Origin: Selenomonas sp. TAMA-11512
GTDB lineage: Bacteria > Bacillota > Negativicutes > Selenomonadales > Selenomonadaceae
Length of the DNA stretch: 64,000 bases
NCBI RefSeq assembly: GCF_037076525.1
Contig: NZ_AP029018.1
Coordinates: 1,240,001 to 1,304,000 of the forward strand
Direction of reading: 5' to 3'
Shown: piece by piece, positions 29,360 through 43,878 of the stretch
How positions within the stretch are numbered: the first letter of the stretch is position 1
Layout: each line of letters starts with the position of its first letter
Position numbers and translations under genes: made by a program
The notes under the pieces: model-generated
The model's database searches: none
The model's input: only the letters and a program-made list of their open reading frames with translations
What the model was told of the DNA's origin: nothing

Positions 29360-30070
29360 ATGGAAGTCCGAATTGGTATTGCCAAGACAAGCAAATATGC
29401 GATGCAGTATTGCGGAGACAGCTGCGATATCGCGGAACGTCCGCATGGAGGTATTTCTGCCATTATTGCGGACGGACAGGGAAATGGCCTTGCCGCGCAC
29501 CATACAAGCAGTCTTGTAGTCAATAAGGCTGCATCTCTTCTTGCTGACGGGACTCGCGATGGAGCCGTGGCTCGGGCCGTGCATGACTATCTCTATGCGG
29601 TAAAAGACAGAAAGGTATCATGTACACTCGCACTTGTCAGTGCCGACCTTGAGTCCGAAACTGTTGTCATCAGCCGCAATACAAACTGTCCTGCCATTGT
29701 CAAGACGGATGAGTATACGGCTGTTTACGATGAATCGGTCTCTGCCATCGGTGTCAATCGCCACATGAAGCCGATCGTCTATGAACTTCCGATGACACCG
29801 GGCATGGTTATCGTCACCTATACGGATGGTATTGCACATGCCGGTAAGAAGCGAAAGGGCGAAGAGGCGTCTATTGACAAAATCATTGAGATCATCGAAA
29901 AAAATGATGCGAGCGATCCGGAGTTTATTGCTCGCTCTATTATGGAGTATGCGCTGACTCTCGATCAGGAGCAGGCCGGAGATGATATGACGATTGTGGT
30001 GCTTTCCGTTGTGGAAAGACAGCGGGCAGGAGTGAAAATCGAGGAGATCAGGGTCACATATCCGTGCTAG
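29360..30070 (+). CDS. SpoIIE/PP2C-type serine-threonine phosphatase
   Basis: 236 residues consisting of a bare phosphatase domain with no sensor, coil or membrane part. Metal-binding motifs of the SpoIIE/PPM fold are visible: IIADGQGNGLAA near residue 34, YTDGIAHA in the middle of the second half and AGDDMTIVVLSV near the C-terminus. It should dephosphorylate Ser/Thr-phosphorylated regulators such as anti-sigma antagonists; no such partner is adjacent. Its TAG stop lies inside the left end of a small inverted-repeat element, so the last few residues (TYPC) may derive from that insertion. It starts seven bases after the cyclo-ligase gene. Confidence 0.82.
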   Translation: MEVRIGIAKTSKYAMQYCGDSCDIAERPHGGISAIIADGQGNGLAAHHTSSLVVNKAASLLADGTRDGAVARAVHDYLYAVKDRKVSCTLALVSADLESETVVISRNTNCPAIVKTDEYTAVYDESVSAIGVNRHMKPIVYELPMTPGMVIVTYTDGIAHAGKKRKGEEASIDKIIEIIEKNDASDPEFIARSIMEYALTLDQEQAGDDMTIVVLSVVERQRAGVKIEEIRVTYPC

Positions 30071-30234
30071 GGAAGCACGGATAAAATGAAGTCTGTCAGA
30101 TTGGTGTAGATTTTTCGTTCTGTCAAGGAGGCAAAACGGACGCAGAGTGGTTCTCTGTGGAGGATTTGCCGACGCAGAGAGGGCGGAAAAAATGCGCCAA
30201 GATGGCTGTGCTGAATTTATCCGTGTTTCCCTAG
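30067..30234. repeat. Small interspersed repeat with terminal inverted repeats, copy 1
   Basis: 168 bases bounded by 19-base inverted ends, 18 of 19 matching: the left end is CTAGGGAAGCACGGATAAA (30067-30085) and the right end is its near-perfect complement (30216-30234). The interior is closely similar to the reverse complement of 40515-40681, e.g. ATGAAGTCTGTCAGATTG at 30085-30102 and a conserved ACGCAGAG-CTCTGT hairpin. It encodes no transposase, so it looks like a MITE-type or intergenic repeat. It carries the stop codon of the phosphatase gene at one end and finishes 32 bases before the P-loop gene start. Confidence 0.8.
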
Positions 30235-39384: not shown

Positions 39385-39934
39385 TTATGATTCTTTTACT
39401 TACAATATCGCACAGCTTTTGATGGATCTGGGAAAAGAAGTCGAGGTCGTGCGAAACGACGTGTGCACGCCGGAAGAATTACTCATGAAAAAATATGAGG
39501 CGGTTGTACTATCACCAGGCCACGGTGTGCCGAAAGAAGCAGGCTGCCTGGAGGATTTCATTGAAAAAGCCAAAGGGAGACTGCCAATCTTGGGTGTATG
39601 CTTGGGTCATCAGGCGATCGGTGAGGTCTTTGGAGCAAAAGTTGTTCGAGCAAAGAGCATTGTTCACGGTAAATCCTCTGTGTTGCTGCATGATGGTACC
39701 GGTCTTTACCAAGACGTGTCAAAAAATGCACTCGTGGGACGCTATCATTCACTAGTCGTTGAGAGGGAAAGTTTGCCGGATTGTCTGTATGTGACTTCAG
39801 AGCTCGAAGATGGGATGATTATGGGACTGCGACATCGTCATTACGAGATGGAGGGAATCCAATTTCATCCCGAATCTATTTTAACGCCTGAAGGGCGGCA
39901 GATGATGAGGAATTTTTTAGGTAGGATTGCGTGA
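39365..39934 (+). CDS. trpG: Anthranilate synthase component II (glutamine amidotransferase)
   Basis: 189 residues, class I glutaminase that feeds ammonia to TrpE; PabA-type double use for folate is possible. It starts LLLFDNYDSFTYN. The oxyanion region SPGHGVP, the nucleophile Cys in GVCLGHQAIGE and the His-Glu pair in IQFHPESILTPEG complete the triad. ATG 39365 lies inside the trpE end with GGAGG upstream. The stop overlaps the ubiX start by one base. Confidence 0.95.
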   Translation: MLLLFDNYDSFTYNIAQLLMDLGKEVEVVRNDVCTPEELLMKKYEAVVLSPGHGVPKEAGCLEDFIEKAKGRLPILGVCLGHQAIGEVFGAKVVRAKSIVHGKSSVLLHDGTGLYQDVSKNALVGRYHSLVVERESLPDCLYVTSELEDGMIMGLRHRHYEMEGIQFHPESILTPEGRQMMRNFLGRIA

Positions 39935-40524
39935 TGGAAAATAAAGAGATAAAAACAGATCAGCGAATCATAGTGGGGGCTACGGGAGCCAGCGGCAGTC
40001 CGCTCTTGATAGAATGTCTTCGACAGATTCGCGATACAGCGGGTTACGAGGCTGAACTCATCTTGACGCCTGCGGCCGAGTTGACACTGCGGCAGGAAAG
40101 TGATGTCACGCTGGAAGAGGTAAAGGGATTGGCTGTTCGCACCTATGCGATTGATTCCATTGGAGCTCCGCCGGCAAGCGGTTCCTACCCGACGGCAGGC
40201 ATGGTGATCGTACCATGCTCCATGCACACATTGGCCGGTATTCATTCCGGATTCTCGGATAACCTTCTCCTGCGAGCGGCAGACGTTACGATAAAAGAGG
40301 GGAGACGACTTGTTTTAGCCGTGCGAGAGTCTCCGTTAAGTGCGATTCACCTGCGTAATATGCAGGAGCTGGCCCTGCTTTCCAACGTTAAAATCATGCC
40401 GCCGATGATGACTTTTTACAACCGACCAGACAGTATAGATGAAATGGTGAAGGCGTTTGCCGCACGGTTGCTGCTGCCCTTCGGAATTAAGCATCAAGAG
40501 CATAGAGAGTGGACAGGGATATAA
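39934..40524 (+). CDS. ubiX: UbiX/Pad1-type flavin prenyltransferase
   Basis: 196 residues. UbiX joins dimethylallyl phosphate to FMN to make the prenyl-FMN cofactor of UbiD decarboxylases. Family marks are the N-terminal IVGATGASGSPLLI, the IDSIGAPPASGSYPTAGMVI core, PCSMHTLAGIHSG, LRAADVTIKEGRRLVLAVRE, then PLSAIHL and MPPMMTFYNRPDSI near the C-terminus. ATG 39934 overlaps the trpG stop, so it is translationally coupled to the trp operon. No ubiD is in the window. The TAA stop falls at the border of the second small repeat. Confidence 0.93.
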   Translation: MENKEIKTDQRIIVGATGASGSPLLIECLRQIRDTAGYEAELILTPAAELTLRQESDVTLEEVKGLAVRTYAIDSIGAPPASGSYPTAGMVIVPCSMHTLAGIHSGFSDNLLLRAADVTIKEGRRLVLAVRESPLSAIHLRNMQELALLSNVKIMPPMMTFYNRPDSIDEMVKAFAARLLLPFGIKHQEHREWTGI

Positions 40525-40681
40525 GCACGGATAAATGCAGCACAGCCTGGCGTATCTTTTCCGCCCACGCTTCGCACACCATCCTCTACAGAGCATTGCT
40601 CTGCGTCCGGGTTGTTTCCTTGTGATAGAATGAAGCATCTATGTCAATCTGACAGACTTCACTTTATCAGCGATTCCCAAG
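40515..40681. repeat. Small interspersed repeat with terminal inverted repeats, copy 2 (inverted)
   Basis: About 167 bases. Its reverse complement aligns over its full length with 30067-30234. Shared blocks include GTGAAGTCTGTCAGATTG, CGGACGCAGAG, CTCTGT-GAGGAT, GGGCGGAAAA and GGCTGTGCTG-ATTTATCCGTG. The left end GCACGGATAAA and right end TTTATC...TTCCC form degraded inverted repeats. This copy is more divergent at its ends than copy 1. It lies directly after ubiX and 65 bases before the IS3-family element. Confidence 0.75.
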
Positions 40682-40854
40682 AATAGACCCCCCTTGTGGA
40701 CGGATCTCTGAAAGTTGGTTCTGACAAATTCTTGAAGTGGTAAACTAAAACTGGACACAGAGGGGGTAGAAAATGGACACTGTTTGCAGTATCCTGTACA
40801 CAGGATGACAGGCAGCGGACAGCCTATCTCCCGATGCAGACAGGAGGTTGCCAC

Positions 40855-41223
40855 GTGAAGTACACCAAGGAGCAACGTTTGGACATAGGCCGTCGGATCT
40901 ACGACGGCGAGCTCACGAGATATGAAGCAGCAGAAGAATACGGGATCAGCGAGCAGACCGCACGGGATTACATGCGCCACTACCGGGATGCCAACCAGCT
41001 CCCGCCGAAAAGGGGGGTGCGCAGCTGCTTGGGTCTTGCCAAGACCAAATCCATACCAGTTCCCACCGGCCTGGAAGATCTCCAGTCCATGACGAAAAAA
41101 GAACTAATCGATGCCCTCGTTATGGCAAGGATCACAGAGGCACGCTTAAAAAAAGGTTATCTGGTGGAAGGAGTTGGTGCGGAAAAGACGTTCATTCCTA
41201 TCGGCAGGAAGAATACCAAGTAG
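40855..41223 (+). CDS. IS3-family transposase OrfA (helix-turn-helix)
   Basis: 122 residues. The N-terminal helix-turn-helix (YTKEQRLDIGRRIYDGELTR then YEAAEEYGISEQTARDYMRHY) should recognise the IS ends. GTG 40855 follows GGAGG by seven bases. The seven-A run at 41148-41154 is positioned as A-AAA-AAA in this frame, so a -1 slip would join it to the OrfB frame. Otherwise it ends at TAG 41223, two bases before the OrfB ATG. Confidence 0.85.
   Translation: MKYTKEQRLDIGRRIYDGELTRYEAAEEYGISEQTARDYMRHYRDANQLPPKRGVRSCLGLAKTKSIPVPTGLEDLQSMTKKELIDALVMARITEARLKKGYLVEGVGAEKTFIPIGRKNTK
41148..41154 (+). other. Putative -1 ribosomal frameshift site in the IS3 element
   Basis: Seven consecutive A residues read LEU-LYS-LYS in the OrfA frame. 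After a -1 slip the reading frame is open without a stop through to the OrfB ATG at 41226 and beyond, as expected for programmed OrfAB fusion in IS3-family elements. Confidence 0.7.
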
Positions 41224-41225
41224 TC

Positions 41226-42095
41226 ATGGAGCTTTCCGGACAGTTCCCCATCCGGCTGCTCTGTACAAAGACCGGAATCCCACGCAGCAGCTTCTACAAC
41301 TGGAAGAAGAGCGTGGAACATCCACCCGAACAGAAGAAACGGCTTGTGCAGAGCATCGGATTGTTTCAGGAATACCATGGGCGCTTTCCCTCCCATGGCT
41401 ACCGCTGGCTGAATGCCAAAATCCGATTGGACAAAGGAATCGTATTTTCCGATCCCTATGCCCATAAATGCTGTAAGATCGCAGGGATCAAGAGCCTTTG
41501 CAAACATTACAGCTACAAGAAGGAGGGCGATCCGTCCAGAACCTATCCGAACTTGTTGCTTGCAGGAATCAACATCACCGGCCCCATGGAATGTGTGGTG
41601 AGTGATATGACCGCCTTTTATGTGGAGCGCACATACTACGAGCTCACACTATATATGGATTTGTGGAATGACGAGCTCATTGCCCACGCGCTCTCATCCA
41701 AGCGCGGCGATCGTATGACCTACCTCGACGGCTTGCAGGACGTGCTTGCGTTCAAGAAGCAGTATCCGAATCAGAAGCTCATCCTGCACAGCGATCAAGG
41801 CTCTGTTTACGCATCCAAGAGCTACAACGAACTCCTGCCCATGTACAACATTGTCAGGTCAATGTCCAGAGCCGGCACACCGACAGACAATGCCGCGATG
41901 GAGGCGATTAATGGTTGGATCAAGGCCGAACTCTTTACAGATTTCCATATTACTTCGCCGGAGAATGTCCCCGCTCAGGTATCCGACTACATCCGCTTCT
42001 TCAACGAGGAGCGCCCTGCATATGCCCTTGGATACCTTACGCCGAAGCAGTATCGGGAGCAGTTCGCGCCAAAGCACGAAGGTGCGGCTCCTTGA
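41226..42095 (+). CDS. IS3-family transposase OrfB (DDE catalytic domain)
   Basis: 289 residues. An HTH_21-like segment (FQEYHGRFPSHGYRWLNAKI) is followed by the rve integrase core. The catalytic triad is visible as the Asp in VVSDMTAFY, the Asp in ILHSDQGSVY and the Glu in DNAAMEAINGWIKAE. A C-terminal YIRFFNEERPAYALGYLTP is typical of the family. It appears intact. Probably made as an OrfAB fusion by -1 frameshifting. Confidence 0.9.
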   Translation: MELSGQFPIRLLCTKTGIPRSSFYNWKKSVEHPPEQKKRLVQSIGLFQEYHGRFPSHGYRWLNAKIRLDKGIVFSDPYAHKCCKIAGIKSLCKHYSYKKEGDPSRTYPNLLLAGINITGPMECVVSDMTAFYVERTYYELTLYMDLWNDELIAHALSSKRGDRMTYLDGLQDVLAFKKQYPNQKLILHSDQGSVYASKSYNELLPMYNIVRSMSRAGTPTDNAAMEAINGWIKAELFTDFHITSPENVPAQVSDYIRFFNEERPAYALGYLTPKQYREQFAPKHEGAAP

Positions 42096-42283
42096 TACGT
42101 GTCCTTTGAATGGAGGTCATGGATATTCTGTGTATCACATCTTCGATGAATATGTACAGTATCTCAATTCTAATGACTAATTTTTAGGTTTTTGTGTCCA
42201 GTTTTTGTTGACTAGTGCAATCTTCCTTTTGAGATCCGATTATCGCAGGGGAGGTCTATTCTTTTCGTGGCGGCGTGTTTAGG

Positions 42284-43878
42284 TTCTTTTCGTGGTGGCG
42301 TAAGTGTAAAATAGTTCTCGGAGGGGGTTGCAAAAAGAGAAAGAGACCAGTACCCTAAAGTGTATGCTAACGAGGCGAATACACAAGAAGGAAGGTCTCT
42401 TATGGAAACTATTGTAACAGAAATCCTGGAAATAATAAAGGGTACAAAAGACAATATCTCACAAGAAGAACAACTGCGCAGTTACTTTGAGATCCTGATA
42501 TGCCGTGCAGTTAGTGAGGCATTCGAACGAATTGACAAAGAACTGGCAAAGCGATACGCAGCCAAAGGCTGGCACGTGGAACGGCTTGATGCACGGTGCG
42601 TGCAAGCAAGCTACGGAACCATGCAAATCCGTCGCAGGCGCATGAAAAAAGAAGGAGAAGCCGGTATATACCCCTTGGACAAAGAAGTGGGTATTCGCCC
42701 TTACCGGAGATACACCGCCTATTTGGAATACGTTATTGCCTGTATTGCAGCCAAGAGCGTCTACCGTGATACAGCCGCTGTCGTCAACCTGCTGAGTCCC
42801 GTCACGATAAGCCACCAACAAGTTGCACATGTCGTGAGACGAGTAGGAGAAACCTATGGTGCTTGGGAGAAATTGCAGGAAAGCACCGATCCCATGGAAG
42901 AGACAGAACTGCGCCGACCGGAAGTTCTCTACATCGAAGGGGATGGACTCATGCTGCACGGGCAGAATAAGAAACAGCTCGAGCTCCATCGATTCCAAAT
43001 CGCCGAAGGCGTGCAAGAAAACGGCAACCGTCGTACCCTTATTGGCACCCACTATGTAGCGAATCTCGATCACGAGAAAGCCAAAGAGAGTCTGCTGCAC
43101 TATCTGGGGAGCCACTATGATCTAACCCATACCCTGGTTCTGAGCAACAGTGATGGAGGTGCCGGTTACACCTGCGGCGTCTTTGAAGAAATCCTTGGAA
43201 GCGTCGGCCAGCATGAGCACTTTCTGGATTGGTACCACGTACAAAGGAAATGCAGAGAACGCCTTTTATGGGCGAATTCGACCCTGTGTAAGAAACTACA
43301 CAAAGCGCTGTATATACATGAGCGTGAGGAAGTGAGCCTTGTATTGGATACCGTGGAATCTATGTCCCAAGATGAGCGACAAACGGAACAAGTGGAGCTT
43401 CTTCGAAAGTACATAGAAAGAAACTGGATATACCTTGCCGGCTTGGAAGAACGAGGGATCGGGGAATACAGGAAGCTTTTGGGGACGTGTGAAAGCAACC
43501 ATAGGCTCTACAGCTACCGGATGAAGAAGCAAGGCAGACGATGGAGTCGAGCCGGTGGCGAAGCGATGGTAAAGATCATCACTGGATTGAAGAACGGTGA
43601 TCTGCGAGAGGCCATGGCGGCGAAGGCGGAGTGGTTCAATGCGAAGGTAGGAAGAGACTTCCGCGGAGCCGTGCGAGAGGCATTGAAAAGAAGAAAAAGC
43701 ACGACATATGACGGGGTCCGACATGGGAGGATTACAGTAAGTGCGCCGATGAGCAGTGGGATTGGACATTTGTCCAAATGCTTTGCTTAGAGGCAAAAAA
43801 AGACTATGCCACGAAGGCAGACACATCAAGGGTGAAAACTCACCACCGAGAAAATCTTGACACATACCGTGGTGGCGT
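42284..43878 (+). mobile_element. ISLre2-family insertion sequence with flanking direct repeats
   Basis: The transposase gene is flanked by imperfect 19-base inverted ends: AGTGTAAAATAGTTCTCGG (42303-42321) and, on the complementary strand, TGTGTCAAGATTTTCTCGG (43846-43864). Outside these, CGTGGTGGCGT occurs as a direct repeat on both sides (42291-42301 and 43868-43878), suggesting a target duplication. A third related copy (42266-42276) lies 25 bases further left. Confidence 0.75.
42402..43790 (+). CDS. ISLre2-family (UPF0236) transposase
   Basis: 462 residues. It has the family layout: a helical N-terminus, a Lys/Arg-rich strand (TMQIRRRRMKKEGE), the YIEGDGLMLHGQ strand whose Asp begins the presumed DDE core, LVLSNSDGGAGYT with the second Asp, and HFLDWYHVQRKCRERL. 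A C-terminal ESNHRLYSYRMKKQGRRWSR supplies the conserved Glu and Arg/Trp. It appears full length. ATG 42402 follows AAGGAAGG. Confidence 0.88.
   Translation: METIVTEILEIIKGTKDNISQEEQLRSYFEILICRAVSEAFERIDKELAKRYAAKGWHVERLDARCVQASYGTMQIRRRRMKKEGEAGIYPLDKEVGIRPYRRYTAYLEYVIACIAAKSVYRDTAAVVNLLSPVTISHQQVAHVVRRVGETYGAWEKLQESTDPMEETELRRPEVLYIEGDGLMLHGQNKKQLELHRFQIAEGVQENGNRRTLIGTHYVANLDHEKAKESLLHYLGSHYDLTHTLVLSNSDGGAGYTCGVFEEILGSVGQHEHFLDWYHVQRKCRERLLWANSTLCKKLHKALYIHEREEVSLVLDTVESMSQDERQTEQVELLRKYIERNWIYLAGLEERGIGEYRKLLGTCESNHRLYSYRMKKQGRRWSRAGGEAMVKIITGLKNGDLREAMAAKAEWFNAKVGRDFRGAVREALKRRKSTTYDGVRHGRITVSAPMSSGIGHLSKCFA

Follow-up and report, generated by a model that had tools for sequence, protein, structure and literature searches.

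A mobile, high-copy IS5-type MITE family in Selenomonas and related bacteria, with an apparently RNA-like covarying interior and exchangeable ends

What kind of element is a short repeat with inverted ends that occurs twice, in opposite orientation, in one stretch of the Selenomonas sp. TAMA-11512 genome? The window (the whole 64,000-nucleotide stretch analysed) had received a preliminary description from its letters alone, which proposed at 30067–30234 a MITE or REP-like element without a transposase, mobilised in trans, probably multi-copy and of no described family. Read from the sequence, the 19-base ends of this unit are identical at 18 of 19 positions, and its interior aligns over the full length to the reverse strand of 40515–40681 (160 aligned columns, 19 gap columns), as had been noted. 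The repeat is therefore real as described, but its limits are not: an excess of 4-bp flanking duplications over permutation across 69 copies assigns the CTAG on either side (30067–30070 and 30231–30234) to the target, leaving 30071–30230 as the element (Table 1). Bases 30068–30070, the TAG stop codon of the gene at 29360–30070, lie inside the left duplication. The absence of a transposase was borne out, with internal stops in five of six frames and the sixth open for the element's 55 codons only. Being 160 bp long (under 500 bp), non-coding and bounded by terminal inverted repeats, the element has the size, coding status and ends of a MITE.

Table 1. Features of the two element copies and their neighbouring genes in the window
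Feature	Position	Strand	Remark
Left target-site duplication, CTAG	30067–30070	+	basis: 4-bp duplications over 69 copies
Mobile element copy 1, 160 bp	30071–30230	+	+ is the better folding, RNA-type strand
Left terminal inverted repeat GGAAGCACGGATAAA	30071–30085	+	
Right terminal inverted repeat GGAAACACGGATAAA	30216–30230	-	read on the - strand
Conserved structured core (model R1)	30087–30217	+	long hairpin with tandem G.A internal loops
Right target-site duplication, CTAG	30231–30234	+	
Copy 2	40521–40677	-	diverged further (82% identity to copy 1)
Terminal repeat of copy 2, GGAATCGCTGATAAA	40663–40677	-	read on the - strand
Neighbour gene, SpoIIE-type phosphatase domain	29360–30070	+	stop codon within copy 1 target duplication
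Neighbour gene, flavoprotein	39931–40524	+	stop codon within outer end of copy 2

The core of copy 2 covers 40534–40661, and its outer end is degraded on one side; the flavoprotein gene there is presumably UbiX-like. The two insertion sequences reported beside this copy are an IS3-family transposase (41226–42095, with a helix-turn-helix frame at 40834–41223 upstream) and an ISLre2 transposase (42360–43790), together spanning 40834–43790. At copy 1 the left end (30067–30089) carries stop codons in more than one frame, from the TAG or TAA of the target and the TGA at 9–11 and 17–19 in typical copies, so that genes struck near their 3' end terminate cleanly. Gene-end distances spike at 0, -11 and -19. 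The left end also holds an extended -10-like motif, TGATAAAAT, a candidate picked out by eye.

The repeat is abundant in its own genome (2,593,422 bp, one contig). BLASTN gave at least 47 matches, 40 of them long and 84–100% identical (40 of 138 candidates scored), and the end motif with up to three mismatches occurred 124 times (63 + 61) against 2 for the reversed control. A covariance model, R1, built from 16 sequences of the interior alone, was run with 150 of 1047 candidates scored and gave at least 81 matches at E≤0.01, of which at least 69 fell below 1e-16. The multi-copy nature of the element, previously a conjecture, is thus established, and the 67 further strong copies beyond the window's two rule out an origin by gene duplication. 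For the analysis of ends we took 76 of the 81 matches, omitting five weak or partial ones, and both ends could be placed in 69. The commonest end-to-end length was 160 bp (39/69). An exact 4-bp flanking duplication, the feature that dispersal by transposition had called for, was found in 29 of these 69 copies and was inexact in the other 40; the permuted mean was 7.3, and none of 20000 permutations reached the observed value. Duplications of two, three and five bases numbered 10, 5 and 1. In the four bases directly before and directly after the element, the preferred sequences were TTAA, CTAA, CTAG and TTAG, a YTAR-like target of four bases, and YTAR is the target of the IS5 group. A replication-strand bias was considered and set aside (12, 22, 23 and 19 copies by half and strand; origin not established). 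At G000:C1:1443532-1443605, in the same genome, two facing ends together span 74 bp and enclose no more than a weak 39-base match to the core, which may mark a derivative that has lost part of its interior.

The ends point to a source of the transposase. IS5-family insertion sequences (NCBIfam IS5_4) share the element's ends, GGAAGCRCTGATAAA, and the expectation that a donor would have ends starting CTAGGGAA proved correct once CTAG had been assigned to the target. Four DDE_Tnp_1 matches were found in the element's own genome, two of which (L031 and L033) are IS5-like transposases, both broken and each keeping one matching end or more; L033 has itself received a copy of the element, with a TTCA duplication. 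Among 14 related genomes searched, 11 had DDE_Tnp_1 matches, and three of these (G146, G134 and G002) carry open frames of 344–345 codons between matching ends, all three being uninterrupted IS5_4 transposases (E 2.4e-92, 6.4e-91 and 4.7e-95). Autonomous elements are thus present in three related genomes, and the two found in the element's own genome are remnants. A further genome (G091) has two IS5 elements between matching ends, with one stop codon in each. The remaining three of the 14 (G036, G129 and G124) gave no DDE_Tnp_1 match though each has at least 22 core matches, so many copies can occur where this search sees no donor.

Movement itself is documented at one site. In G134 (locus L169) an IS5 transposase gene is interrupted by a 160-bp copy flanked on either side by TTTA, and the joined flanks equal 77 of 78 positions of an uninserted homologue in G091 (L167, itself with one stop codon). 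This clean empty site (n=1) shows transposition of a 160-bp copy; the family is dispersed, multi-copy and provided with an empty site, as a MITE should be. The copies, the 4-bp target duplication, the empty site and the IS5-type elements with equal ends all fit the earlier MITE reading, and insertion sequences of this type with matching ends would mobilise the element in trans. A second end type points to another subgroup: in G031 an incomplete IS5_3 frame of 205 codons (profile positions 90–256 of 258) sits in a 662-bp stretch with GGGCGTGTTKAAAAA ends. No intact IS5_3 element with GGGCGTGTTKAAAAA ends was found. The core was also considered as an internal-deletion product of the donor insertion sequence and this was rejected, as only short matches, mostly at the ends, were seen. 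A comparison of G029 with G074 over 200 kb, aimed at further empty sites, gave seven matches, four of which represent two shared copies, the other three lying outside the listed aligned blocks.

The interior has properties of a structured RNA. Copy 1 folds at -89.9 kcal/mol against -49 for shuffled sequence (z -9). We aligned 55 of 84 core matches with MAFFT (alignment A7), omitting 21 antisense duplicates, one duplicate copy and seven weak or partial matches. In this alignment 92.8% of cells are paired, and double-sided change occurs at 40 of 44 pairs, in 408 cells (shuffled 113, s.d. 10). The covariation score of 0.549 exceeds both the shuffled (0.197, s.d. 0.008) and the slid (at most 0.137) controls, as in structured RNA families. 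The interruptions of the long hairpin are mostly tandem G.A, with GA opposite GA in 40, 38, 37 and 24 of the 55 rows at four sites. Some rows that lack the G.A at a site have Watson-Crick pairs there instead, CC/GG in two cases and GC/GC in three. The rule is not strict, since site 3 has GC/AA in eleven rows and site 4 has AA or CA opposite GA in 23.

The fold might instead be kept at the DNA level, the palindrome of an ordinary MITE being preserved by hairpin or cruciform formation or by conversion between arms, with no RNA role. The whole element is palindromic, ends included, and the antisense strand folds too, with a mean of -41 against -63 kcal/mol for the sense strand. However, all 55 rows fold more stably in sense than in antisense, and such asymmetry counts against this reading because processes acting on double strands should be strand-blind; the consensus of 66 of the 69 own copies folds at -82.5 kcal/mol in sense and -42.8 in antisense. 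Wobble is likewise one-sided. In a structure-fitted alignment of 61 distinct rows (the 59 best plus L199–L201, less one duplicate), pairs with a Watson-Crick majority show G.U 186 times and A.C 41 times (178 and 57 in A7), counts whose p-values are not independent tests as the rows are related, and whose bias may be partly methodological as RNAalifold and the model favour G.U. Among own copies, 108 Watson-Crick pairs have become G.U, 61 A.C and 121 other mismatches, an excess of G.U to which subfamilies may contribute. The mismatches, moreover, are largely tandem G.A at fixed sites. We therefore regard a purely DNA-level fold as rather unlikely; the wobble bias suggests an RNA, and a folded single DNA strand could give the same bias.

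None of 4227 Rfam families scored above gathering at the element, and relaxed searches (E up to 5 or 1) yielded no known RNA family either, in line with the earlier impression of an undescribed repeat. Two overlaps below threshold at copy edges, rimP at L074 (E 0.62) and MEG8_3 at L186 (E 0.91), are taken as chance. Group I introns gave no match in Rfam searches of the element and loci. Near individual copies we noted a T-box-like leader (L186:940-1134, 77.8 bits against a gathering score of 93) and, on the same locus as a copy, parts of a group II intron (L188:2349-3130, G248).

If the fold is selected, its surroundings may tell whether it serves the host gene or the element. One alternative holds that the repeat is a cis-acting message element of Correia/NEMIS or BOX type that is transcribed along with adjacent genes and sets message stability or processing, for example through RNase III. 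Transcribed Correia repeats are cleaved by RNase III, according to the available parts of two papers (PMC3049150, PMC10969869). With a crude ORF rule, moreover, an element end is no more than 12 nt away from 26 of 63 gene 3' ends in the element's own genome, compared with 2 of 73 5' ends. This closeness to stop codons was dropped as a lead, for it varied with the ORF rule and was unremarkable elsewhere: under a second rule (window -20 to 12 nt) the counts are 37 of 68 3' against 26 of 82 5' ends here, and 32 of 76 against 37 of 92 in other genomes. For orientation and distance we used 96 of 111 matches, 84 of them with 500 bp on each side. Between co-directional genes, 20 copies are sense and 16 antisense here, and 21 and 21 in other genomes (19 and 12 in the own genome under the first ORF rule). 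Since orientation is random, no cis effect on host messages is visible. Fixed copies tell against this reading as well. In 12 comparisons of orthologous copies, several sharing a locus, the element is better conserved than both flanks in six, less than both in four and between them in two. Paired sites of these copies comprise 32 singly broken, 14 A.C and 11 doubly broken cells, alongside 24 singly kept, 19 doubly kept and 49 gapped cells. Fixed copies thus show no consistent extra conservation, broken pairs being about as common as kept ones. A cis-acting role in host messages accordingly seems unlikely. Random orientation and the lack of consistent extra conservation point to selection on the mobile lineage, so that the fold is probably selected in the lineage that keeps jumping, with little selection on single copies. 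Its role could possibly lie in RNase III resistance of a transcript, in helix breaks that stabilise the palindrome or in a protein partner.

The core reaches well beyond one genome. Plain-DNA searches of relatives matched 11 of 60 genomes (own included), some at 71–87% over the full length; in G024 and G008 the matches covered the interior only. Within the family, model R1 at E≤1e-4 found the core in 72 of 151 genomes, from 19 of 30 genera; across the class, at E≤1e-5, it did so in 69 of 300, from 28 of 97 genera, and 26 of these 69 lie outside the family. Beyond the own family, matches below 1e-15 occur in four others (f4, f10, f11 and f15); the weaker ones in f6, f7, f23, f24, f32 and f34 may come from unrelated hairpins. 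The highest numbers per genome include 107 (G176), 63 (G045), 48 (G031), 46 (G002) and 42 (G025 and G123), and the 35 genomes scored most deeply gave 890 matches (cut-offs 0.01, 1e-4 and 1e-6). Neither this spread nor the structured, covarying interior had featured in the preliminary description.

The ends do not follow the core. The same core is found with end types GGAARCRCTGATWAA, GGAACCGCTGATTAAA, GGGCGTGTTGATTAA and GGTGCTGGTGGTAAAA and is combined with ends of two IS5 subgroups; the ends thus vary, whereas the interior is conserved between genera and in at least five families, in shape more than in sequence. Copies of genus g25 (G024, loci L102–L107 and L085) have ends that are unlike between copies and largely complementary within each, as if the ends changed in pairs. 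Two end types also coexist within each of G025 and G026. We built a tree of 76 of 90 cores, leaving out 14 with unclear or unequal ends (a repeat tree had one row fewer), from about 119 columns and with few well supported branches. On it the four end types need 6 changes against a minimum of 3, and monophyly of type B (12 rows) is rejected (p-AU 0.0004); without the doubtful L196, a weak type B, 11 rows remain, with 4 changes and a p-AU of 0.011. It remains that type-B ends were apparently gained, or lost, more than once.

Several copies lie in unusual sequence. A search of plasmids and phages gave no match, and carriage by either was set aside. Three IMG/VR contigs classed as viral (L435, L436 and L437) have strong core matches, possibly prophage borders or host sequence. 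The contig that carries one strong copy (L316:2131-2261, 128.8 bits) was assigned to a goat-rumen Desulfovibrio MAG, reflecting either transfer or misbinning. A contig of Alphaproteobacteria (L377) was not matched by the model at 1e-10, and its pattern hit is attributed to chance.

Retention of the core with different ends would also suit a trans-acting structured RNA, multi-copy and partly adopted by the host (to bind proteins or act as a sponge), with the MITE ends serving only to copy it. The non-paired GA loops recur across families and could form a surface for protein or tertiary contacts. This reading is nevertheless improbable in our judgement, as 231 of 300 class genomes, some of the same family, have no match at the cut-off, and the core is therefore not generally needed. 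The former label REP-like finds no support, and a REP/RAYT element is hardly credible: the repeat is palindromic, mostly intergenic and of high copy, but REP/RAYT palindromes measure 20–40 bp, and this unit is 160 bp long, has the ends of an IS5 element, duplicates 4 bp of target and has IS5 relatives with equal ends, as an IS-derived MITE does.

What we have is a real, mobile, high-copy IS5-type MITE family, unnamed as far as searched. The account that we consider probable combines a MITE moved by IS5 transposases with an RNA-type covarying interior, exchangeable ends and selection on the propagating lineage. IS5-family DDE transposases would recognise the GGAAGCRCTGATAAA ends of the non-autonomous element, which, judging from its anatomy and the one empty site, inserts at a 4-bp YTAR-like target that is then duplicated. 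The interior of about 130 nt is an RNA-type structural module rather than leftover sequence, a long hairpin in which short helices alternate with tandem G.A internal loops and whose fold is kept by compensatory change in several families with wobble allowed on one strand. The ends are exchangeable, one core occurring with those of two IS5 subgroups. The target of selection would most likely be the lineage that propagates, not its host, and a folded transcript or single strand would aid spread or the tolerance of insertions, for example by RNase III resistance or by shielding of the ends. More tentatively, and with real doubt on our part, the family might be a bacterial counterpart of SINEs, in which the structured RNA is the unit of selection, the ends are exchangeable and the fold is needed for spread or tolerance.

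MITEs are usually viewed as remnants between two ends. Here it is the ends that are replaceable and the middle that is preserved, with RNA-like covariation across several families. The host bacteria belong to a class known from mouths and rumens, and the family gives a testable case of a DNA transposon with an RNA fold under selection. The covariance model labels repeats so far unnamed (the 890 matches in 35 genomes), and natural end-swap pairs are at hand for work on transposase recognition.

No earlier description of the repeat family was seen in the titles and abstract openings screened, few of them from subscription journals, so that one may exist elsewhere. Several known systems come close to it. 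IS5_4 (NF033581) and IS5_3 (NF033580) have the same terminal repeats and a 4-bp YTAR-like target; the element differs in lacking a transposase, and its core, with only end-length or chance-length matches to them, is not visibly part of either. Bacterial MITEs derived from insertion sequences, as presented in the accessible part of PMC10969869, resemble it in being short and non-coding, with inverted repeats, target duplications, a stable transcript fold and an insertion sequence with equal ends. They differ in the interior, which here spans families, shows compensatory change and is combined with varied ends; within the texts available to our literature search, no MITE report described an interior conserved in this way. 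RUP and BOX of Streptococcus pneumoniae are similar in their high copy number, ends like those of a resident insertion sequence and tight fold that includes the ends, as far as the available portion of PMC3049150 goes. They differ in range, being placed there in S. pneumoniae, more rarely in S. mitis and hardly ever in other streptococci, and the main text of that paper contains no words beginning covari- or compensat-. The Correia/NEMIS repeats of Neisseria, again from partial texts (PMC3049150, PMC10969869), are likewise small mobile repeats with inverted ends (26 bp, with an interior of up to 156 bp) whose Correia transcripts are cut by RNase III; their interior is of another kind. IStrons, from what the consulted part of PMC4227781 reports, also place an RNA module on DNA-transposon ends of different IS families, in an RNA-transposon symbiosis. 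They carry a self-splicing group I intron, however, and none matched in the element, which we accordingly do not count among them. Set beside these systems, what appears new is an interior that is a covarying RNA-type structure, common to several families of the class and joined to changeable ends.
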